Part shown: positions 51,998 through 64,000 of the stretch, in pieces
Position numbering within the stretch: position 1 is the first letter of the stretch
Layout: every line of letters starts with the position of its first letter
DNA from: Fibrobacter sp.
Lineage (GTDB): Bacteria > Fibrobacterota > Fibrobacteria > Fibrobacterales > Fibrobacteraceae
Direction of reading: 5' to 3'
Length of the DNA stretch: 64,000 bases
Assembly: GCA_017503015.1 (NCBI GenBank)
Contig: JAFVTX010000026.1
Span: 1 to 64,000 of the forward strand
The notes under the pieces: generated by a model
The model's database searches: none
Told to the model about the DNA's origin: nothing
The model's input: only the letters and a program-made list of their open reading frames with translations
Made by a program: the position numbers and the translations under genes

Positions 51998-54433
51998 TTA
52001 GCGCAGCACAATATCCCCGTTCGCGACGAGCTTGTCACGCAGCTTGTTGTGGGCCTTGTTGACTTCGTCGTCGGTAAGCGTGCGGTCCATGGCCTGGTAG
52101 GTGAGGCTGTAGACCATGTTCTTCTTGCCGGCTTCGATTTTGTCGCCTTCGTAGATGCTCTTGAGAGTAATCTTCGCGAGGTTCTTGGGGTTCAATCCCT
52201 TGATGCGGGCGACAATGTCTTCGTGAGTCATGGACTTCGCCACTTCCAGCGAGATGTCGCGGCTAGACGGCACCTGGCGGCTGAAGGCTTCGAACACGAT
52301 CTTCTTGTGGGTCGCGTGTTCCATCTTGTCCATGTCCAGCTCCATCACGTAGGTGGTGTAGCTGATGTCATTAGCGGCCATCACGGAGGGGTGGAGTTCA
52401 CCCATGGTGCCGAGCACCACGCCGTCGGCGAGGATTTCGGTCTGCTTACCCGGGTGCAGGAAGATTTCAGGCTTGGCGCTCACGCGGAATTCCACCACGA
52501 GGCCCACGCGCTTGAGGAAGCTCTGCACGAATCCCTTGAAGGCGGAAAAGTCAATCTGGGCGGGCTTGTCGTTGAGCGGGTTCACGTCGAAGGCGCCTGC
52601 AACGGCGAGGGCGACGAGGTTCGATTCGTCAAAGCCCGGATCGCGCACGTCCTTGCGGTCGCGCTTGAACTGGCCCTTGGCCACTTCGAACAGGCGCACG
52701 GAACCGGGGCGGTTCTTCTCGTTCTCGGCAACGCTCTTGAGGAGGTTGGGGAGAAGGCTCGTGGGCACGGCGCCCAGCTCTTCGGAGAGCGGGTTCAGGA
52801 GTAGTGCGGGCTTGCTGCGGCGGTCGTCGCTTTCGGGGCCAAAGAGGGCCTCGGTGCGGGCCTTGCTCGTGAAGCGCAGGCTCAGACATTCATGCAGACC
52901 CATGGCAGAAAGCGTCTTGCGGATCTTACGGTTCAGAACTTCAATCGGCGGAAGTTCGTTGGGCTGCATCTTGAAGGAAGGCAGCGTGTACGGGATGTTG
53001 TCGAACCCGACGAGGCGGGCGACTTCTTCGATGAGGTCCACTTCGCGTTCGAGGTCGGGACGGAAGCTCGGAATCTTGAACGTGATGGAGTCCGCCGTCT
53101 TGGAGACGACTTCGAGGGCGATGCCCGTGAGGAACTTTTCCACCTGGGCCATCTCAAGCTTCATGCCGATAACGCGTTCGGCCTGGGCGATGCGGAGCGT
53201 GACCACGTTGTTTTCTTTCTTGTGGTCGTCGCCGGTGTATTCGACGCTGCCCTTGAGGATGCGGCCACCCGCGACTTCCTGGATGAGGGCGCAGGCGTAC
53301 TTGCTGTATTCGTCCTGGGTGGCGAAGTCGATTTCACGTTCAAAACGGTAGCTGGAGTCCGTGGAAATGCAGAGGCGCTTCGCCTGCTTGCGGACCACCG
53401 TCGGGTTGAACCAGGCGCTCTCGAGAAACACGTTCTTGGTGGCATCGACGATTTCGGATTCGACGCCGCCCATCACGCCGGCAACGCAAGCCGGACGGTC
53501 GCCGTCGCAAATCACGAGGTCGTTTTCGACGAGTTCGTGAGCGGTGTGGTCAATCGTTTCGATTTTTTCGCCCTTCACTGCGCGGCGCACCTTGATCTTG
53601 TTGCCGTGCAGCTGGTCCATGTCAAAGCTGTGGAGCGGCTGGCCCACGTCCATCAAGATGAAGTTCGTGATGTCCACCACGTTGTTGATGCTGTTCATGC
53701 CCACGGCGTGCAAAAGCTTTGCGAGCCAGGACGGGGACTTTTCGACCTTCACGTCCTTGATGACGCGGCCCACGTAGCGGGAGCAACCGCAGCCGGGAAC
53801 CACTTCGAGGCTGATAGCGGAACTTGCCGGTTCGGCATCTTCCTTGAGTTCGTAGGCGAGGGGCTTCAGCGGGCGGTTGAACTTCGCGGCCAGTTCGCGG
53901 GCCACACCGCGGTGGCTGAGTGCATCCGGGCGGTTCGGGGTCACGTTCAGTTCATAGCACACGTCGTACATGCCGAGGCTCACGAACGGAGTGCCGGCCG
54001 GAATGCTGTCATCCAGCACCATGATGCCCGCGTGGTCGTCGCTAAGGCCGATTTCGTCTTCGGCGCAAATCATGCCGAAGCTTTCCACACCGCGGATCTT
54101 GGACTTCTTCATCTTGAGGGTGCCGCCGTCGGGGAGCGGAAGTTCCGCGCCAATGGGGGCGAGAACCACGGTCTGGCCTGCGGCTACGTTCGGGGCGCCG
54201 CACACGACCTGGAGCGTTTCCTTGCCGTCGTTCACGGTGGTGATGTGCAGGTGGTCGCTGTCCGGGTGAGCTTCACAGGTGAGGACCTTCGCTACAACGA
54301 GCTTTTCATAGACCTTGCCCGGTTCTTCCATGCCTTCGACTTCGAGGCCAATAGAGGTGAGGGCCTTTGCAACTTCTTCCGCGGATTCCGGAAGATCAAC
54401 GTGACGTCTGAGCCAATTCAAAGAAACTTTCAT
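51998..54433 (-). CDS. pheT: Phenylalanyl-tRNA synthetase beta subunit
   Basis: 811 residues. N-terminal tRNA-binding (EMAP-like) part with VAKVLTCEAHPDSDHLHI; B3/B4 editing part; the B5 and core region with RFERE..DF; and the C-terminal ferredoxin-fold anticodon-binding part (SSRDISLEV). It pairs with PheS, which is not seen nearby: upstream lies alr. The two lipoprotein genes follow within 8 nt. Confidence 0.95.
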   Translation of the reverse strand: MKVSLNWLRRHVDLPESAEEVAKALTSIGLEVEGMEEPGKVYEKLVVAKVLTCEAHPDSDHLHITTVNDGKETLQVVCGAPNVAAGQTVVLAPIGAELPLPDGGTLKMKKSKIRGVESFGMICAEDEIGLSDDHAGIMVLDDSIPAGTPFVSLGMYDVCYELNVTPNRPDALSHRGVARELAAKFNRPLKPLAYELKEDAEPASSAISLEVVPGCGCSRYVGRVIKDVKVEKSPSWLAKLLHAVGMNSINNVVDITNFILMDVGQPLHSFDMDQLHGNKIKVRRAVKGEKIETIDHTAHELVENDLVICDGDRPACVAGVMGGVESEIVDATKNVFLESAWFNPTVVRKQAKRLCISTDSSYRFEREIDFATQDEYSKYACALIQEVAGGRILKGSVEYTGDDHKKENNVVTLRIAQAERVIGMKLEMAQVEKFLTGIALEVVSKTADSITFKIPSFRPDLEREVDLIEEVARLVGFDNIPYTLPSFKMQPNELPPIEVLNRKIRKTLSAMGLHECLSLRFTSKARTEALFGPESDDRRSKPALLLNPLSEELGAVPTSLLPNLLKSVAENEKNRPGSVRLFEVAKGQFKRDRKDVRDPGFDESNLVALAVAGAFDVNPLNDKPAQIDFSAFKGFVQSFLKRVGLVVEFRVSAKPEIFLHPGKQTEILADGVVLGTMGELHPSVMAANDISYTTYVMELDMDKMEHATHKKIVFEAFSRQVPSSRDISLEVAKSMTHEDIVARIKGLNPKNLAKITLKSIYEGDKIEAGKKNMVYSLTYQAMDRTLTDDEVNKAHNKLRDKLVANGDIVLR

Positions 54434-54529
54434 CTTTTCCTCTTTGGCACGGTTTTCGCGCCGTCAGATAGCCGCAAAATCCGTGCCTGCTTAAATTTTC
54501 CCGGGTAAATATAGAAATTACACTCTTTT

Positions 54530-55807: not shown

Positions 55808-56431
55808 TTATTCTATAGAAGAAATCCCCTTCAGGCTTTCTTCCAAGCATTCGCCCAGTAGTTTGGACAGGGCTTCCGCCGTGACTCTCGGTTCGCGACT
55901 GTCGGTGGACTTGCTCTTGTCGCACTTGCCTTCCCAGAGGGAGGTTCCTTGGGATACATCCGTGAATGAAATGCCGAGGAGCAAATGTGCCGACTGGCCC
56001 CCACCGTTATCGACTTCTTCAAGGGCGCCGATGTTTCCGGAGAGTTCGTATTCCGGCATGGTGCCGCCCGCTGTGACGACCGACTTGAACAGCCCGCTCT
56101 TTTCGGCATATTCGGCGACAACTTGGGTAATCATGTGCTCTGGCCGGCTTGCCCACAGGTCCAGTTCGTAGAACATGAAATCGTAGGGGGATTCCCGGTA
56201 GACGATTCCCGTGCGCTGGTAGGCGGGGTCGATGGTGAATTTTTTTATGGCTACAGTTTTTTGTGCAAACTTTGCGCTTGCCTTGGGCTTGGAAATGTTT
56301 TCTACGGCGAGGGTGTAGTAACGCGTGGGTTCTGTGGTTCCTCCGCCGAAACATCCTTGCAGGGTGAACGTTAGCAACAACAAGGCTGCAAGATTCCGGG
56401 CCGCGGTACGGAATAACGAGCAATTAATCAT
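55808..56431 (-). CDS. ABC-transport auxiliary lipoprotein (PqiC/ABC_trans_aux type)
   Basis: 207 residues with lipobox LQGC (Cys27). RYYTL near the start and the YELSGNIGALEE and VSQGTSLWEGKC parts fit the ABC-type transport auxiliary lipoprotein family, which tethers MCE (Mla/Pqi) complexes to the outer membrane. Its ATG overlaps the mlaD stop as ATGA (56431-56428). Confidence 0.75.
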   Translation of the reverse strand: MINCSLFRTAARNLAALLLLTFTLQGCFGGGTTEPTRYYTLAVENISKPKASAKFAQKTVAIKKFTIDPAYQRTGIVYRESPYDFMFYELDLWASRPEHMITQVVAEYAEKSGLFKSVVTAGGTMPEYELSGNIGALEEVDNGGGQSAHLLLGISFTDVSQGTSLWEGKCDKSKSTDSREPRVTAEALSKLLGECLEESLKGISSIE

Positions 56432-57354
56432 TTGCGCCTCTCCTTGTTTTCTGAATGGATGAGCATTGACGGGTTGTTCTTGATTTTCTGCGAGAATTCC
56501 TCCAGGTTCGAAAGCACGGCGTTCAGTTCCGTGACGGCGTTTCCAACCTGGTCTTCGTTCTTGTAAATCATCTGGTCTAGCCGTTTGGTCAACTTGTTGA
56601 CCGATGCCATGGCCTGGTTCAGGTTGTCGTTGATATTCTTGGTGTCAATGGCTTCCAGTTTTTCTTTGAGGACATCCAGGTCTTCTCCCGCCTTGGCGGC
56701 AATTTTAGCCTCCTCGATTTCGGTCATGATATTTTTCATGGAACCGGCGGCTTCCGAGATGTTGTTGATGGGCTTGTCCAGATTCTGGGAGAGGCTGCTC
56801 AGGTTCTTGGTGGCCACTTCCAGGTTCTTGATAGCCTTGCTGATGTTTTCGGCGTTCTCAGAAGAGAAAATGTTGTTCAGGTTATGCAACAGCGTGTCGA
56901 CCCGGCCGACGATGTTTCCTGCCTGGGAGGCTATTTCGTCAAAGGCGGATTCCTCTGCTGGCACAAAACCGCCTTCGGGCACGTCGGGTTCGTCAAAGTT
57001 ACCGCCCGAAAGGATTATCTGTTTTTCGCCTGTCAGGGAGATGCCGTGGGTCATGCCTGCCCGCGTCCCTTTTTTGATGGGTGTCCCCTTGTCTACGCGG
57101 AAAGAAACGATGACCTGGTTCAGGTTGGCCGAGTCGATGTGGATTCCGGTTACGTTACCCACGTCGATACCGTTCAGCTTCACATGGGCCTCGCCGTATA
57201 GACCTGTGACGGACTTGTTGAAGATGGTGTAGTAGTTGTCGTATTCCCTGTTCAGGTATGTCGAAAGCACATATCCCAGAAATACCAGGATAAGGATTCC
57301 GCATAGAAGCATGAATGCGCCAATTCGAACCCGCTCTTTTCGTGTGGTTTCCAT
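56428..57354 (-). CDS. mlaD: MlaD-type MCE domain protein
   Basis: 308 residues. One N-terminal membrane helix (IGAFMLLCGILILVFLGYVL), then the MCE domain (VTGLYGEAHVKLNGIDVGNVTGI), a phospholipid-carrying ring subunit. A long helical, coiled-coil-prone tail (about 150-290) may form a periplasmic tube as in larger MCE proteins. It follows the ATPase by 12 nt. The family role is phospholipid transport across the periplasm. Confidence 0.85.
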   Translation of the reverse strand: METTRKERVRIGAFMLLCGILILVFLGYVLSTYLNREYDNYYTIFNKSVTGLYGEAHVKLNGIDVGNVTGIHIDSANLNQVIVSFRVDKGTPIKKGTRAGMTHGISLTGEKQIILSGGNFDEPDVPEGGFVPAEESAFDEIASQAGNIVGRVDTLLHNLNNIFSSENAENISKAIKNLEVATKNLSSLSQNLDKPINNISEAAGSMKNIMTEIEEAKIAAKAGEDLDVLKEKLEAIDTKNINDNLNQAMASVNKLTKRLDQMIYKNEDQVGNAVTELNAVLSNLEEFSQKIKNNPSMLIHSENKERRK

Positions 57355-57366
57355 GGTAACTCCAAA

Positions 57367-58155
57367 TCAGTCCACAAAGTTAAAATGGTAATAGTCCTTG
57401 TTGTCAATCTCTTTGGGACTTTTCCTGTTAAAGAAGGATTTTAAAACGGGAAGCTCGCTTTCCATACCCTGCTGCAGAGTTCCGTCCATGAGCACGTATC
57501 CGTCCTGTAAATAAATGAATCGGTCGCAGATAATCTTGATACTTTCCAGTTCATGACTCACGATGACCATAGATACGCCCAGGGTATCCCTGAGTTCCAG
57601 CAGGAGTTCGTCCAGGGAGCGGGCCGTCACCGGGTCTAGGCCTGTTGAAGGTTCGTCGCAGAACAGCAGTTCCGGCTTTAGGGCTATGGCACGTGCAAGG
57701 GCGGCGCGCCTCTGCATACCTCCCGAAAGTTCCGCCGGATACTTGTGGAACGCGTGCAGCAGGTGCACCTTTTCGAGCCTGTCGGCCACGATGGCCTCCA
57801 TCTGGCTCTTGGGCATGTAGGGCATACTCCGGATAAGGGGCATCATGGCGTTTTCGGCGACGGTCAGGTCCGAAAGGAGCGCCCCGTTCTGGAAAAGCAC
57901 GCCCATGCGCATTCGGGTGACATAGTCCAGCCCGCTTTTTGCCGAGTAGGTTTTTCCGAAATAGGTGATGGTTCCGCTGGTCGCTTTAATTAGCTTTAGG
58001 ATGTTGTTCAGGAGGGTTGACTTCCCGCAGCCCGAACTTCCAAGAATCATGCGGATTTCGCCTCTCCGCACGTCAAAGGAAATGTCGTGGAGGACTTCTT
58101 TGCCCTTGTACCCTGTTCTCAGGTGTTCTACTTTGAGTGTAATATCGTCGTCCAT
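57367..58155 (-). CDS. mlaF: MlaF-type ABC ATPase
   Basis: 262 residues from ATG 58155. Walker A GSSGCGKST, signature LSGGMQRRAALARA, Walker B LLFCDEPSTGLDP, VSHELES. It powers the Mla-like phospholipid transporter. An open frame reads further upstream but overlaps mlaE, so I take the ATG that follows mlaE by 8 nt. Confidence 0.9.
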   Translation of the reverse strand: MDDDITLKVEHLRTGYKGKEVLHDISFDVRRGEIRMILGSSGCGKSTLLNNILKLIKATSGTITYFGKTYSAKSGLDYVTRMRMGVLFQNGALLSDLTVAENAMMPLIRSMPYMPKSQMEAIVADRLEKVHLLHAFHKYPAELSGGMQRRAALARAIALKPELLFCDEPSTGLDPVTARSLDELLLELRDTLGVSMVIVSHELESIKIICDRFIYLQDGYVLMDGTLQQGMESELPVLKSFFNRKSPKEIDNKDYYHFNFVD

Positions 58156-58163
58156 GGTAACTC

Positions 58164-59225
58164 CTAGTAGAATGCGAAACTGAAAGCGCAGTCGGCGACG
58201 ATGATGCTGGAAATGGAAATGACCACGCTGGAGGTGGTGGCGTGTCCGACGGCGTCGGCACCACCGACGGCGGTCAATCCCTTGTGGCAAGAAATCATGG
58301 TGATGAGCCAGCCAAACACCACGGCCTTTACGGTACTTTTCAAGAAAAGGACTGGTGGAATTCCGTCGCGGATTTCCTGGAAGTAATTGGCAAAGGAAAT
58401 GTCAAAGAAGAAGAAGGCGATGAGGAACCCGGCAAGGCAGCCAGCAATGCCAGCGCAGAACGAAAGGATGGGCGTGCAGATGGTCATGGCGATAAAGCGG
58501 GGAACCACCAGGTACTGGACAGGAGAAATGGCCATGGCCTTGATGGCCTTGACCTCTTCGCAGACGCTCATGTTGGCAATTTCGGCGGCAATGGATGAGC
58601 CGGAGCGGCCCGCCAGGATGATGGTGGTCAGGAGCGGACTGATTTCGGCAAAAATCAGGTAACCCAGGCCCGAGGCCAGGTAGGACCCTCCGCCTACGGC
58701 CTTGAGCATGAAGGAACTCTGCAGGGCCATGGTAAAGCATATCAGGGCCACCATTAAAAAACAGATGCCCATGGCTTCGGCACCGAGCCTGTTGATTTGC
58801 TTAGCCGTCCCGCCGAACTTGCTTTTTCCCTTGTCGAAGTGTCCGTACAGGCTCCAATAGATGCAGGTGTTCAGGAGGACAAAAATCTTGGCGACACTCC
58901 TTGCGACAAGAATCGTGTTTTCGCCGAGCCTTTCGAGAAAGTTCTGGTTGACCTTGTTCTTTGGGGGAATCTTCGGCTTTTTGAGGTGTTGCAGATGAAA
59001 CTTGATGTCGTCGTTAAAGTGGGCGAGGGTAAGCTTGTAACCGCTTTTTTCGCTGGTGTCTGCCAGGAGGGCGAAAAAGGCGTCTCCGCTATAGTCCATG
59101 TACTTCAGGCTCTTCCCATCCAGGAGGAGGGGCCCGCGCTGCAGGGCCTTTCTGCAGTTCTGCAGCAGGACCCTGCTATTTTCAGCGGTGAGGCTTTCCG
59201 GAAGTATGATGGTCTTGCTCTGCAT
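58164..59225 (-). CDS. mlaE: MlaE-family permease with fused N-terminal STAS domain
   Basis: 353 residues, longer than the ~260 of E. coli MlaE. The first ~80 residues resemble a STAS domain (ILPESLTAENSRVLLQNC...GPLLLDGKSLKYMDYSGDAFF), the fold of the separate MlaB subunit. Five or six membrane helices follow with TTIILAGRSGSSIAAEIA, the MlaE signature. A built-in STAS part explains why no mlaB is seen. It begins 8 nt after the reductase gene. Confidence 0.88.
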   Translation of the reverse strand: MQSKTIILPESLTAENSRVLLQNCRKALQRGPLLLDGKSLKYMDYSGDAFFALLADTSEKSGYKLTLAHFNDDIKFHLQHLKKPKIPPKNKVNQNFLERLGENTILVARSVAKIFVLLNTCIYWSLYGHFDKGKSKFGGTAKQINRLGAEAMGICFLMVALICFTMALQSSFMLKAVGGGSYLASGLGYLIFAEISPLLTTIILAGRSGSSIAAEIANMSVCEEVKAIKAMAISPVQYLVVPRFIAMTICTPILSFCAGIAGCLAGFLIAFFFFDISFANYFQEIRDGIPPVLFLKSTVKAVVFGWLITMISCHKGLTAVGGADAVGHATTSSVVISISSIIVADCAFSFAFY

Positions 59226-59233
59226 GCAAAATC

Positions 59234-59989
59234 CTAGAAATTGTCATCCCGGTCAAACATGTGGGTAACGAATTCTACCACCAGTTTCTCGTAGGCTTCG
59301 TCGCTAAAGATAGTCTTTTGCATGAGGTCTATCGCCTCTTTTGAGAGTTTACCTGTCTTTGCAAGTTCTGCGCCGCCTTGCCAGTACCGTTTGCGCAAGA
59401 TGTTTAGCCTGCGTTCCCCGCCCCGGTGGTGCAGGGCCCGCATCTGGGGGCAGGCCACAAGTTGGTAACCCTCGTGACCTAGGATAATGTCGAACTGCTT
59501 TACGATGGGCTCGTAAACAACGTCGATGTCGCACCAGGCACAACTGGACAGCAAGATGATTTTCTGGCCTTCTTTTTGGAACTGAAGCCCGTGGAGGTTA
59601 GAATTGGCCGCGTTAACGCCCTCTCCCAGTTTTTGACCCATGTAGGGGTGAACCATTCCCACGATACGGTCCATCAGCACCTTCATCTGTCCGGGGACGC
59701 CGAATAGGAACAGCGGGAAACTCCAGATGACGATGTCTGAATTGATGAGTTTTTCACGTATGGCGGGAACGTCGTCGTCCTTGATGAAACAGCTTCCGTC
59801 GGGCCGACCCCAGCAACTGAGGCAACCACGACAGGGCTTGATGTTCATCTTGTCGATGAAGATGTACTCGGTTTCGAAAGAACCGTTTTCTTCAAGGCCC
59901 TGAACAAAGGCCTTGGTTGGAATCAGTGTGCCGCTCCGTTCGTTTTTGGGGCTTGCTACCATTACGAGGATTTTTTTTGTTTCTGCCAT
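59234..59989 (-). CDS. Flavodoxin-fold NAD(P)H:FMN-type reductase
   Basis: 251 residues. NADPH-dependent FMN reductase type: MVASPKNERSGTLIPTKAFV (phosphate loop), CRGCLSCW (Cys pair), and WSFPLFLFGVPGQMKVLMDRIVG. These reduce flavin or quinone, or act in Fe-S-related electron transfer. In an envelope-lipid operon its role is unclear. Confidence 0.7.
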   Translation of the reverse strand: MAETKKILVMVASPKNERSGTLIPTKAFVQGLEENGSFETEYIFIDKMNIKPCRGCLSCWGRPDGSCFIKDDDVPAIREKLINSDIVIWSFPLFLFGVPGQMKVLMDRIVGMVHPYMGQKLGEGVNAANSNLHGLQFQKEGQKIILLSSCAWCDIDVVYEPIVKQFDIILGHEGYQLVACPQMRALHHRGGERRLNILRKRYWQGGAELAKTGKLSKEAIDLMQKTIFSDEAYEKLVVEFVTHMFDRDDNF

Positions 59990-60012: not shown

Positions 60013-60858
60013 TTAGATTTCCAGGAAAGTCTTCAGGTCTTCCATACGCTGTTTTGCCATATCGACGCCGTGCTCATAGGATTCGTTCATCTTGTTCATG
60101 TCGGTATCGAACTGGTCGCAAAGGTCAATAATTGGGCGAATCAGGAACAGTTTCCCCTCTTTTTCCAGGGCTTCCATCTGGATAAACTTTTTTTCGTACC
60201 GCTTGAGCCGTACCATCAATGCTCTAAAGAGATTGGGGTATTTTTGCTTGTACATGGGGTTGAGTATCGCTCTGTACTTGCGGAAATCCGTCACCGCTTC
60301 TCCTGGGTAGTGGGTAGAAATGGCCACTACCTTGTCGCACCCTTTCTCGAAGGCCCGTTCGTAGGGGATGGGTTCGGTAATGCAGCCGTCGGCGTAGTGC
60401 TTGTCGTCTAGCTTTGCCATAGGGAACAGCATGGGCAGGGCGCAACTGGCGCTGATCAGGTCCAGGAGCCGCTTCTTGTCTTGCTTTTCGGACCTGAATT
60501 CGGCGCGACCCGTCTCACAGCAGGTGAGGCCGATTTCGCATTCGACCCTGGAACTTGCGTAGGCTTCAAAGTCCAGGGGCATTTCACCGTCGGCAGACAA
60601 GTAGTTTAGGGCATGAAATTCCTTCTGGATGCCGATGTACTTGCTTGCCCATTTCTTGCCCTTTTGGAGTCGGGTGGGCAAGACGATAAAGCGGAGACGC
60701 CCCTGTTGGCGGGTAATGTAATTGATGGCCGCGTGCGCCCCGGCAGAAACGCCTGCAATGTAGTCAAAGGGGATGTCTTCGTCCATGAAGGTGTCCAGCA
60801 CGCCTGCGCTGAACATGGTCTGGCGGGAACCTCCTTCTAGAACCAGCCCCGTTTTCAT
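60013..60858 (-). CDS. Patatin-like phospholipase
   Basis: 281 residues. Oxyanion loop LVLEGGSRQTMFS, nucleophile GVSAG in IAGVSAGAHAA, and the DG of the Ser/Asp dyad in YADGCITEPIPYE. Patatins release fatty acids from phospholipids. Its start overlaps the acyltransferase by ATGA. A DUF6363-like C-terminal part may follow (not confirmed). Confidence 0.82.
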   Translation of the reverse strand: MKTGLVLEGGSRQTMFSAGVLDTFMDEDIPFDYIAGVSAGAHAAINYITRQQGRLRFIVLPTRLQKGKKWASKYIGIQKEFHALNYLSADGEMPLDFEAYASSRVECEIGLTCCETGRAEFRSEKQDKKRLLDLISASCALPMLFPMAKLDDKHYADGCITEPIPYERAFEKGCDKVVAISTHYPGEAVTDFRKYRAILNPMYKQKYPNLFRALMVRLKRYEKKFIQMEALEKEGKLFLIRPIIDLCDQFDTDMNKMNESYEHGVDMAKQRMEDLKTFLEI

Positions 60859-61562
60859 GCCAGTACCTCTTTTGGAGTTTCTGCGGCAACGGGCAAAGCC
60901 TTCGGCTCGGCTATGCCAAGGGCCTGCTGCTTGAGTTGCCAGACCTTCTGCCTAAAGTGTTCGCTCCGTTCTGTTAGATGTCTTGAAGAGGGGATTCCCT
61001 TCACCCGTTCAATTTTTTCGGCGTCTCCTACCACTATATGGGTGCGGTGTCCAAATTTGTAGATTCCGTCAAGACCGACAGAAAGAACCGGCGCTCCGGT
61101 ACTGCGCGCAAGGAAGGCAAAGCCCGTCTTGAACTCGTTCAGCAGCCCGTCGTAACGGCACTTGCCTTCGGGAAAAATGATGACATTGTTCCCTTTTTCC
61201 AGTTCGCGTTTGGCAAGCAAGGCCCATTCGGTGTCCATGTTGAACCGGTCACAGGGAATCACGCATTTTGCGCGGGTCAGCGCCCAACGAAAATGGGGAT
61301 CTTCAATCTGGTCCTTGGCCACCACGATACTCTTGTGGGAAAAGAAAACCGCAAGCATCATGATGGGGTCAAGCATGCTGGTGTGGTTGGCGATAATCAC
61401 CGACGGAGTTCCGAGATGAACTGACTTGACCGATTCACCTGCAAAGATGACCTTCGGGCGGAACCAGGCGAACATAAAGACCCGCACCGTGTATATCACC
61501 ACGATGACAACGAGATGCATGAAGCATTCTACCAGCGGGTTTTTCCTTGAGTTCCTAGCCAC
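60855..61562 (-). CDS. PlsC-like 1-acyl-glycerophosphate/lysophospholipid acyltransferase
   Basis: 235 residues. Catalytic HX4D in ANHTSMLDPIM; substrate pocket FPEGKCRYDG. An N-terminal hydrophobic segment anchors it in the membrane. PlsC-type enzymes acylate lysophosphatidate; related ones add acyl chains to other lipids, including aryl-polyene or lipid-A-like molecules. Between FabZ and patatin it suggests lipid-head assembly. Confidence 0.8.
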   Translation of the reverse strand: MARNSRKNPLVECFMHLVVIVVIYTVRVFMFAWFRPKVIFAGESVKSVHLGTPSVIIANHTSMLDPIMMLAVFFSHKSIVVAKDQIEDPHFRWALTRAKCVIPCDRFNMDTEWALLAKRELEKGNNVIIFPEGKCRYDGLLNEFKTGFAFLARSTGAPVLSVGLDGIYKFGHRTHIVVGDAEKIERVKGIPSSRHLTERSEHFRQKVWQLKQQALGIAEPKALPVAAETPKEVLA

Positions 61563-61589: not shown

Positions 61590-62036
61590 CTATTTCCCTA
61601 AGGATTCCTTTGGAATGCTCGTAAAGGTGAGGGCGCCCTTGGCGTGGACGTTTCCGTTCACTTTCACGATGCAGTCAAAGCCCACCAGCACGCCGCCTTC
61701 CTTGGTCTTCTTGACGGAAATTTCGAGCTGGTCGCCGGGAATCACCGGCTTCACGAACTTGAATCCGTCAATCTTCAAAAGCACGTAGAGATTCTTTTCC
61801 AAATCTTCGGCAGGTTTTTCAATCACCAGCGAGCAGAGCTGGGCGCAGCTTTCCACAATGAGCACGCCCGGCATAATCGGGGTTCCCGGGAAATGTCCCG
61901 TAAAATACGGTTCGTTCACGCTTACGTTCTTGATACCCACGGCAGATTCGTTCGGCGTAAGTTCCGTGACACGCTCGATCATCTGGAACGGCGGGCGCTG
62001 TGCAATCTTTTCGCTGATTTCGTAAATGTTCATCAT
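61590..62036 (-). CDS. fabZ: 3-hydroxyacyl-ACP dehydratase FabZ-like
   Basis: 148 residues. The hotdog fold catalytic H and E: VNEPYFTGHFPGTPIMPGVLIVESCAQ. RPPFQMIERVTEL is typical. It dehydrates 3-hydroxyacyl-ACP. Two ATGs are in tandem at 62036 and 62033; the first overlaps the fabG stop as ATGA, with GGAGG nine bases upstream. Confidence 0.9.
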   Translation of the reverse strand: MMNIYEISEKIAQRPPFQMIERVTELTPNESAVGIKNVSVNEPYFTGHFPGTPIMPGVLIVESCAQLCSLVIEKPAEDLEKNLYVLLKIDGFKFVKPVIPGDQLEISVKKTKEGGVLVGFDCIVKVNGNVHAKGALTFTSIPKESLGK

Positions 62037-62764
62037 AGGGAAAGTCCTCCGTCCAGCACGAACACCTGGCCGGTCACGTAGGCGAACTGGTCAGAGGCCA
62101 GGGCCGACACGATGTTGGCCACTTCGTCGGCGGAACCGAAACGTTTTAAGGGAATCTTTTCGAGGTACCCCTTGCGGGTCTCTTCGGGAATGGCCTCTAT
62201 CATCTCTGTCGCGATAAAGCCCGGAGCCACGGCATTCACGCGGATACCGAAACCGCCCAGCTCCTTCGCGAGGGTCTGGGTCAGGGAGTTCACGGCTCCC
62301 TTCGTGGCGCTGTAGACGGCCTGGCCTGCCAACGCGAATTTCGACGACACGGAACTCATGTTGATAATCACGCCGGATTTCTGCTTGTACATCTTCACGG
62401 CCACCTGCTGGGCACAGTAGAAGTAGCCCTTCACGTTCAGGTCGAAGCACTTGTCCAAGGTTTCCGGGTTCATCATCATCAGGTATTCGTCGCGCACGAT
62501 GCCTGCGTTGTTCACCAGTACGTCAATGCGGCCGTAGGCCTTGAACACCTCGCGGACCATCACCTTCACCTGGGAGAGGTCGGCCACGTTCGCCTTGTAA
62601 ACCATGCCGTCGCCACCTTCGGCCTTGATCTGATCAAGCGTGGCGTTCGCCGCCTCGTCAGAACTGGAGTAGTTCACTACGACGGTGTAGCCGTCGCGGG
62701 CAAGGCGCAAGGCGCAGGCCTTGCCGATACCCTTTGAAGCACCTGTTACCAAAGCAACTTTCAT
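62033..62764 (-). CDS. fabG: 3-oxoacyl-ACP reductase FabG
   Basis: 243 residues. Cofactor site TGASKGIG, NNAGIVRD, catalytic S, and YSATKGAVNSLTQ with Y and K. It reduces 3-ketoacyl-ACP with NADPH. It sits between the KS-like gene (23 nt) and fabZ (overlap). Confidence 0.93.
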   Translation of the reverse strand: MKVALVTGASKGIGKACALRLARDGYTVVVNYSSSDEAANATLDQIKAEGGDGMVYKANVADLSQVKVMVREVFKAYGRIDVLVNNAGIVRDEYLMMMNPETLDKCFDLNVKGYFYCAQQVAVKMYKQKSGVIINMSSVSSKFALAGQAVYSATKGAVNSLTQTLAKELGGFGIRVNAVAPGFIATEMIEAIPEETRKGYLEKIPLKRFGSADEVANIVSALASDQFAYVTGQVFVLDGGLSL

Positions 62765-62787: not shown

Positions 62788-64000
62788 CTATTTACCGAAA
62801 ATGACTGCGCTGTAAGACCCGCCTGCCGCAAACGAAATCACCAAAATTTTCTTGAGGCCAGTCGCATCGACCTTCTTGGATGCCACGGAACCGTCTGCCG
62901 CCACAAAGTAGGCGTTGTCGCCTGCAAGTTCACCACTCAGCAGGAGGGCCGCTTCGGCGGCGGCCAGGGCCGCAGACCCCGCACGGCCTTCACCGGTGCG
63001 TTCCTTGACTTCAAAAAGCGGCATCGTGGAAAGTTTTTCGCCGAACACGCGCCTGAGGGAACCCCTTTCGATATCGTCAATCCGCTTGCACCCGTTGGCG
63101 AACCCGCAAACCGCATCGATGTCGCTTACGGTGATACCAGCATCGGCCAGGGCATCTGCAATGGCCTTGTCGAGGGCGTTTTCGGAACCGGCGAGTTTTC
63201 CAAATTTCACGTTCTTGCGGCCGTGCCCAAAGCCCAGCGCATAGCAGTAGACCTTCGCGCCCCGGGACTTGGCATAAGAATCTTCTTCGAGCATGATAGA
63301 CACGGAACCATCGCCCACCACAAAGCCTTCGTTTTCGGCATAGGGTGCGACCACCTTATTTGCCGCCACGCCAAGTTTCTGGGCAAATTCCGTAATAATC
63401 GGCAGGTTTTCGTCTGTACCGGTGGCCATCATTGCCTTTTCCTGGCCGTCGTGAATCACGTTCATGGAGTAGCCGATACTGTCGAGTCCTGAAAGTGGGC
63501 CTGTGGTAATGGTGACGCCGTAGCCCTTGATGCCGGAACAAATGGAAAGGTAGCCGCCAGCCGCATTGTAAACGGTGTGGGGGAACTTGAAGGCCGAACC
63601 CTGGGAGTTGCCTTCCCGTGCAATCAGTTCCTCGAAATCGTAGGTGGCGCCGAGGCCGCCTTCGCTGGTGCCTACGATGATGCCGATATCCTTGGCGTTG
63701 TCGTCGGTTACCGTGAAGCTGGCGTCTTGGAGGGCCCGCATGCCGGATACCGTCTGGAGTTGACCTAGGTTGTCCAGTTTACGGTAGAAGGCCATCTTGA
63801 CCCCGAGTTCCTTGTAGTCTTCGAGGGCGATTGTGGAATGTACCGATGGGGATTCGGGCTTCTTGTCTGCCTTTACTGCTTCCAGGTAGGCCGCCTTGCT
63901 GTTCCCTAGCGGGGACACGATTCCAAGACCGGTTACGGCAATCTTCTTGCCTGCCGCAGACTGGGCGGCAACTTCGCCGGGGATTTTCGAGAAAACAATG
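62788..64000 (-). CDS. Beta-ketoacyl synthase-like protein lacking the catalytic triad (partial)
   Basis: The start lies right of the window; about 404 codons are seen. KS fold: KKIAVTGLGIVSPLGN, GTSEGGLGATYDF, FPHTVYNAAGGYLSI, GFVVGDGSVSIMLEE. The catalytic Cys position (TACxTG in FabF) reads TTGPLSGLDSIG, with Pro at 63496-63498; the first His site reads GFANGCKRIDD and the second KERTGEGRAG. All three residues of the Cys-His-His triad are absent, so it cannot condense by the usual mechanism. It resembles chain-length-factor partners of aryl-polyene and aromatic polyketide synthases. Seventeen residues precede the KS start without a Met, so it may be longer or fused. Confidence 0.7.
   Translation of the reverse strand, partial: IVFSKIPGEVAAQSAAGKKIAVTGLGIVSPLGNSKAAYLEAVKADKKPESPSVHSTIALEDYKELGVKMAFYRKLDNLGQLQTVSGMRALQDASFTVTDDNAKDIGIIVGTSEGGLGATYDFEELIAREGNSQGSAFKFPHTVYNAAGGYLSICSGIKGYGVTITTGPLSGLDSIGYSMNVIHDGQEKAMMATGTDENLPIITEFAQKLGVAANKVVAPYAENEGFVVGDGSVSIMLEEDSYAKSRGAKVYCYALGFGHGRKNVKFGKLAGSENALDKAIADALADAGITVSDIDAVCGFANGCKRIDDIERGSLRRVFGEKLSTMPLFEVKERTGEGRAGSAALAAAEAALLLSGELAGDNAYFVAADGSVASKKVDATGLKKILVISFAAGGSYSAVIFGK

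Follow-up and report, generated by a model that had tools for sequence, protein, structure and literature searches.

A ketosynthase–chain-length factor fusion and a candidate flavoprotein partner in Fibrobacter, Treponema and Lachnospiraceae

We analysed a stretch of 64,000 nucleotides from a Fibrobacter genome (the window; bases 1-64000 of contig C26, which has 73,168 bases in a genome of 2.96 Mb; coordinates beyond 64000 keep the window numbering) and found that its right edge cuts a gene in which an active ketosynthase (KS) and an inactive KS domain of the chain-length factor (CLF) type are fused in one polypeptide. The whole gene lies at 62788-65184 on the minus strand and encodes 798 amino acids in one frame, with two KS domains and no internal stop. 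Its in-window part (62788..64000, minus strand) holds the CLF domain and the linker, and the frame leaves the window into the active KS half (residues about 1-403), the gene continuing to 65184. The N-terminal half carries the full active site (NACAAG, HGTGTG, STK and GHCLG); in the C-terminal half, the active-site Cys is replaced by Pro (TTGPLSG), the first His by Phe (VCGFANG), and the second His by Glu (RTGEGRA). A Pfam scan of the fusion found KS domains only, and the chain stops at residue 798. A preliminary description of the window had reported at 62788-64000 a KS-like protein of CLF type without a catalytic triad. The missing triad and the CLF-type identity were borne out; the separate protein was not, as the domain is the C-terminal half of the fusion. 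A stand-alone CLF gene was rejected because its GTG 'start' at 63918 is internal to the 798-aa gene. Our preferred reading, held with moderate confidence, is that the fusion belongs to a dedicated type II synthase that would supply glycerophospholipids with an acyl chain, a flavoprotein being its redox partner and possibly its enoyl reductase. As part of that reading, the fusion and its own acyl carrier protein (ACP), FabG and FabZ are best read as a synthase of acyl chains distinct from the housekeeping fatty acid synthase (FAS).

The division into an active and an inactive half is conserved. Sixty-eight loci were collected, and two copies cut by contig ends (L079 and L081) were excluded, leaving 66 copies in one piece, of which some are near-identical. 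L079, from a record named Bacteroidales, was placed with Fibrobacter, being 93% identical. The KS residues C155, H287, K319 and H324 are invariant in 66/66 copies. At the Cys site of the CLF half, Pro is found in 48 copies, Ala in 11 and other residues in 7, and Cys in none; the two His sites hold Phe (64), Leu (1) or Val (1), and Glu (65) or Asp (1), respectively, and never His. With Cys or His retained in 0/66 CLF halves and all 66 KS halves intact, the loss in the CLF halves is more than chance.

The fusion is patchily spread over three phyla of animal-gut bacteria (Fibrobacter, Treponema and Lachnospiraceae). A full-length, one-piece fusion at no less than 77% identity (>=77%) was found in 57 of the 167 Fibrobacterota genomes searched, in addition to one copy split over two contigs (G120). 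By group, it occurs in 52/80 genomes of the window's genus, in 6/6 of one sister genus and in 0/81 elsewhere. Further carriers are 14 of 195 genomes in a Treponema family (three already known), 8 of 397 in a Lachnospiraceae family and 4 of 391 in Clostridia, the last two counts both including the centre genome G168. Named carriers include F. intestinalis ATCC 43854 and Lachnospira eligens ATCC 27750 (60% identical), the latter species being a human commensal. Matches at 35-40% identity in Bacteroidales, Clostridia and others (L090-L116) proved to be one FabF-like gene each and no fusion, and seven of them were used as tree references. In distant Fibrobacterota (for example G016, G017, G019, G031, G032, G037 and G038), one-piece KS-KS frames were seen at 28-33% identity; such frames (for example G016:C90, G031:C7 and G032:C49) have about 770-1,300 aa, match most of the fusion and are often paired in tandem. 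It is possible that they encode further KS-CLF fusions or type I synthases.

The fusion is accompanied by a conserved core of genes. The preliminary description had placed an active KS and an ACP to the right of the window, and both are found there, the KS in the same polypeptide as the CLF and the ACP (81 aa) at 65200-65445 on the minus strand. On the same strand follow a FabG-type 3-oxoacyl-ACP reductase (ketoreductase, KR; 243 aa, 62033..62764), a FabZ-type 3-hydroxyacyl-ACP dehydratase (DH; 148 aa, 61590..62036, with a 4-base overlap with FabG), a PlsC-type (lyso)phospholipid acyltransferase (235 aa, 60855..61562), a patatin-like phospholipase with a DUF6363 domain (281 aa, 60013..60858) and a flavodoxin-fold flavoprotein of the flavin mononucleotide (FMN) reductase type (251 aa, 59234..59989). 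From the ACP to the MlaE gene that comes next, adjacent genes either lie 8 to 27 bases apart or share 4 bases. Sixty-nine loci were scored, and 45 of them were well flanked (at least 3 kb upstream and at least 5 kb downstream; 23 Fibrobacter and 22 non-Fibrobacter). Among these 45, the ACP is present in all, FabG in 44 and FabZ in 41, and beyond this core PlsC is present in 33 and the patatin in 26; loci with PlsC close to the core are found in all three groups, Fibrobacter, Treponema and Lachnospiraceae. At 95% or more (43 to 68 aligned copies each), the functional residues are conserved in the ACP (Ser), FabG (Tyr-Lys), FabZ (His and Glu), PlsC (His and the FPEG-type motif), the patatin (GxSxG and Asp-Gly) and the flavoprotein (four spaced Cys, C53-x2-C56-x2-C59-x7-C67). 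In PlsC, the acidic residue after the His is Asp or Glu by eye.

All nine well-flanked Lachnospiraceae loci also contain FabD and a carboxylase subunit, the latter with ACCA and Carboxyl_trans domains (AccD/AccA) in L088 and of the PccB type in L141 and L143. In L. eligens, the gene row reads ACP, KS-CLF, FabG, FabZ, FabD, AccD, an AccA-like frame, flavodoxin and PlsX. Some Fibrobacter loci have PccB- and FabD-type genes next to them, but on the opposite strand, and these were left out of the cluster.

The flavoprotein gene lies near the fusion in 21/22 well-flanked non-Fibrobacter loci, and in the window's genus it co-occurs with the fusion across genomes. An orthologue (at least 78% identical) is present in 54/80 genus genomes: 52 have both genes, none has the fusion only, two have the flavoprotein only, and 26 have neither (Fisher p 5e-19, relatedness not being allowed for). 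The two flavoprotein-only genomes, G074 and G137, are 81% and 74% complete. Among the 40 best genomes (completeness of 90% or more, contamination of 5% or less), both genes occur together in 30, the other 10 have neither, and none has one alone. The two genes are not neighbours in 42/52 carriers, some of which are fragmented genomes; in G104 they share one contig about 1.1 Mb apart, and among 12 flavoprotein regions that were fetched, one was at the operon. The presence lists and the linked-genome list used for these counts were transcribed by hand. Relatedness was addressed with a PheT tree of 61/80 genomes, 19 being excluded for missing, short or unfetched PheT. On this tree we count 8 changes of the fusion (7 if G074 is left out), and the flavoprotein changes with the fusion in 7/7 independent pairs when G074, which has the flavoprotein and the patatin and in which no fusion was found, is dropped, and in 7/8 when it is kept (sign test p 0.016 either way). 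An aromatic amino-acid lyase, which is also patchy (38/80 genus genomes), served as the control. Both genes were found in 27 genomes, the fusion only in 25, the lyase only in 11 and neither in 17, with no significant association (p=0.35; in the 40 best genomes 18, 12, 3 and 7, p=0.15). The lyase changes 19 times on the PheT tree, and its 7 independent pairs average 2.3 same, 1.5 opposite and 3.2 without difference. An orthologue of the patatin (at least 62% identical) is present in 51/52 carriers, the exception being G123; G074 also has it, and G110 has a fragment. It lies beside the fusion in most carriers and on another contig in some (G062 and G097).

The four-cysteine motif of the flavoprotein presumably resembles that of iron-sulfur flavoproteins. 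Its best-scoring solved sequence relative is 7d38 (FLR), with E 7.6e-7 in the single-sequence comparison and 1.2e-13 with a profile over about 104 positions, the likeness being restricted to about the first 105 residues of the flavoprotein. In an excerpt of PMC7862272, FLR is a flavone reductase, an FMN ene-reductase. From this likeness, it is a fair guess that the flavoprotein may act as an enoyl reductase; the Pfam scan of ten operon products revealed no recognisable enoyl reductase of a classical kind.

A tree of 65 rows, which include KS halves, CLF halves, FabFs, KSs of aryl-polyene (Ape) systems, and unfused KSs and CLFs, recovered the KS halves as one group and the CLF halves as one group (100/100 each). 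The KS halves, together with the ApeO pair and unfused KS partners, branch apart from the FabFs at 95/87; the grouping with FabF that the preliminary description had named as speaking against its proposal was thus not seen. The nearest join of the KS halves, to unfused KSs, is weaker (90/67), and the CLF halves join unfused CLFs at 100/97 under a long-branch warning. Because in both halves the Fibrobacter copies nest in those of Treponema, and these in clostridial ones, although some inner forks are weak, the tree suggests that the fusion may have been transferred between these groups as a whole.

An AlphaFold2 model of the fusion (mean predicted local distance difference test score, pLDDT, 79; predicted template modelling score, pTM, 0.86; stretches below 50, such as 186-212 and 524-542) has as its best Foldseek match the KS-CLF didomain of PfaC (6riw), which it matches over both halves with a TMq of 0.76 and 17% identity. 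Foldseek rows 2-50 align about half of the model, and the best 50 VIA-align rows cover the KS half only. A KS-CLF fusion is known from PfaC, which belongs to a multidomain complex and carries further DH domains on the same chain. The fusion shares with this polyunsaturated fatty acid (PUFA) synthase an active KS followed by an inactive CLF in one polypeptide; it differs in that it ends after the CLF, with KS domains only in Pfam, and has a free ACP, FabG and FabZ adjacent. With type II KS-CLF systems (the minimal polyketide synthase, PKS), it shares the Cys-His-His and Lys of the KS, the absence of the Cys from the CLF and a free-standing ACP with its Ser site, but those systems have separate heterodimer subunits where one polypeptide is found here. 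Compared with highly reducing type II PKSs of the ishigamide type (6kxd), the set of KS-CLF, KR, DH and ACP is alike and the KS half matches 6kxd_A (Z 48.4, root-mean-square deviation 2.4, 370 aligned; tied with FabFs), whereas here the KS and CLF are fused and accompanied by the flavoprotein, PlsC and the patatin.

KS-CLF fusions were also seen on large secondary replicons or plasmids, namely NC_012780 of L. eligens ATCC 27750 and plasmids of Priestia, Pseudalkalibacillus and Streptomyces, among the best 10 of 164 matched plasmid records. Those of Priestia megaterium, Pseudalkalibacillus and Streptomyces likewise have an intact KS, no CLF Cys, and ACP, KR and DH genes nearby, but they are 30-33% identical, have other neighbours, and keep a His at one CLF site in two cases. 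For the stretches shown around these plasmid fusions, the gene table, which is incomplete, lists no gene of the flavodoxin family. Unfused KS-CLF gene pairs occur in distant Fibrobacterota (L162-L167), and near L162, L163, L165 and L166 there are in some cases FabZ, FabG or ACP genes, FAD amine-oxidase-like proteins and radical-SAM-like frames, a set that we take to recall proposed ladderane genes.

Further genes surround the core in the window's contig, all on the minus strand. Upstream, to the right of the window, lie a 4HBT thioesterase (65571-65975; 10/37 Fibrobacter loci) and an Omp85-type barrel (66002-67108; 16/37 Fibrobacter loci). Downstream of the flavoprotein lie an MlaE-type lipid ATP-binding cassette (ABC) permease with a STAS domain (58164..59225), an MlaF-like ABC ATPase (open frame 57367..58290, with a likely start inside it at MDDD), an MlaD/MCE-like protein (56428..57354) and a PqiC/ABC-transport-auxiliary-like lipoprotein (55808..56431), the last three being named by eye. 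The preliminary description had read FabG, FabZ, PlsC and phospholipid transport genes as one operon, and this order holds, with the patatin and the flavoprotein preceding the Mla genes. The Mla genes adjoin the fusion in 5/37 scored Fibrobacter loci, all close relatives of the window, and also in a sixth locus (L179). Upstream of the operon, a protein of 1487 aa with BadF/BcrAD and DUF2229 domains is encoded at 67105-71580; it is linked to the fusion in 5/37 Fibrobacter and 1/15 Treponema loci. Since both MlaE and this protein are rarely linked, they are not counted as core. Proteins of this kind presumably include bacterial plasmalogen synthases, and Bacteroides succinogenes is, we assume, now placed in Fibrobacter. 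According to an excerpt of PMC9702350, Bacteroides succinogenes contains plasmenylethanolamine and is rich in plasmalogens. An open frame of 538 aa lies antisense to pheT at 52892-54508 on the plus strand.

The synthase that we propose would work as follows. Malonyl units may come from the single FabD-type gene in Fibrobacter, where one FabD-family match was found in the genome (on C9), and from the cluster-borne FabD and carboxylase subunits in Lachnospiraceae, and would be loaded on the ACP. The KS half would condense them, and the CLF half would shape the tunnel and set the chain length. FabG and FabZ would take each unit from the 3-keto to the 2,3-enoyl stage; the genome has two FabA/FabZ-family matches, the FabZ of the operon and a gene on C25. 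The flavodoxin-fold flavoprotein might reduce some or all of the double bonds, or carry out a different redox reaction. The acyl chain would be attached to a glycerophospholipid by PlsC, joined in L. eligens by PlsX, and these two genes are what points to this destination; the patatin may clear an acyl position for refilling. We infer the chemical product, the reaction of the flavoprotein and the phospholipid destination. More tentatively, and with rather low confidence, the four-cysteine flavoprotein could represent a new class of enoyl-ACP reductase specific to the fused KS-CLF, in a transferred type II PKS for membrane lipids where one module would set both chain length and double-bond number.

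Several observations weigh against this proposal. The flavoprotein gene is near the fusion in only 6/23 well-flanked Fibrobacter loci, and its co-occurrence was seen in a single genus, on one marker-gene tree with 7 independent pairs (7/8 with G074). The predicted fold of the flavoprotein (mean pLDDT 77) is matched better by azo- and quinone-reductases, 7d38 standing at Foldseek rank 49, so that an enoyl-reductase role is one option among others. PlsC is absent near the fusion in 12/45 well-flanked loci and the patatin in 19/45, and PlsC-type genes are common, so that the phospholipid destination is a tentative one. In three clostridial loci (L145-L147), the fusion has 754 aa with a shortened C-terminus, lacks a dedicated FabZ nearby, and precedes an operon of FAS type that includes FabH- and FabK-like genes (both by eye), an arrangement in which it may work with the ordinary FAS.

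If the flavoprotein is not an enoyl reductase, a polyene chain would be expected, as from a highly reducing type II PKS, a system that would differ from our proposal only in its product and in the role of the flavoprotein. The set of KS-CLF, KR, DH and ACP, without a recognised classical enoyl reductase in the ten scanned operon products, corresponds to the gene set described in an excerpt of PMC10698177, and in the tree the KS halves group with the ApeO pair. Set against this, a flavoprotein gene accompanies the system and has a flavone ene-reductase as its best solved relative, and a candidate AMP ligase for starter activation was noticed only in L141 and L143, no systematic search having been made. 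We regard a polyene product as possible but unlikely.

A second branch of ordinary FAS, in which the fusion would elongate normal acyl-ACPs as FabF does and the housekeeping FabV would reduce the double bonds, so as to tune membrane chain length and not to make an unusual lipid, appears improbable. In its favour, the whole fusion scores highest against FabF models (476.1 bits against the FabF equivalog TIGR03150, below its cut-off of 493.75, and 463.8 against the looser subfamily model PRK07314, above 387), the KS half likewise scores highest against FabF structures, a separate FabF-like gene lies beside FabV on C20 of the same genome, and L145-L147 adjoin the FAS-type operon. However, FabF needs no CLF, and here the CLF half is kept, without its Cys and His, in every one-piece copy; the tree parts the fusion from the FabFs, two further FabF-like KS genes are already present in the genome (C20 and C30), and an ordinary FAS needs no special flavoprotein partner.

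Very unlikely, in our judgement, is a soluble small-molecule pathway like that of cispentacin, with a single C2 elongation and cyclisation on the ACP and a lipase and an acyltransferase adjacent by chance. The whole fusion does match the NCBIfam AmcF model (275.2 bits), and the ACP and FabZ weakly match AmcB and AmcE; all three matches, however, fall under their curated cut-offs (325 for AmcF), no aminotransferase was found among the ten scanned operon products, and PlsC is seen again near the core in all three groups, with PlsX in L. eligens.

The preliminary description had inferred an aryl-polyene-like or other specialised lipid cluster, and the latter part fits, whereas we give an aryl-polyene or flexirubin cluster next to no credence. 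Its KS-CLF, ACP, KR, DH and acyltransferase are common gene types and FabG matches the FlxB model of flexirubin (235.2 bits, cut-off 340), but the Ape-like genes lie elsewhere in the genome and the lyase varies independently of the fusion. Contig C58 (L011) encodes the aromatic amino-acid lyase, an AMP-ligase/ApeI fusion and a KS that pairs with E. coli ApeO on a long branch (1.37), and the KS on C41 (L010), which lies with FabG and an MMPL protein, pairs with ApeR (100/100 each); the window KS is outside both pairs. The ApeO-ApeC pair and ApeR are described in an excerpt of PMC8358021. The KS half of the fusion resembles this system in falling with the ApeO pair apart from the FabFs, but the Pfam scan of ten operon products brought up no ammonia lyase, aryl-AMP ligase or MMPL protein, and these genes and the ApeR-like KS are on the other contigs. 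The preliminary description had also pointed to the yellow pigment of Fibrobacter succinogenes; of 3,255 papers matched on this point, the 10 listed included none with that species.

No description of this fused system was found in the listed titles and abstract openings of open-licence literature, where two of the listings covered 10 of 3,255 and 20 of 39 papers, and one may exist elsewhere. If our proposal of a dedicated acyl-chain synthase is right, a lipid synthase has been passed between three phyla of gut bacteria, including the cultured Lachnospira eligens, and a single-chain KS-CLF is on offer for structural work. In addition, co-occurrence would have singled out a candidate for an unrecognised enoyl reductase, at which the gene neighbourhood in most Fibrobacter species gives no hint.

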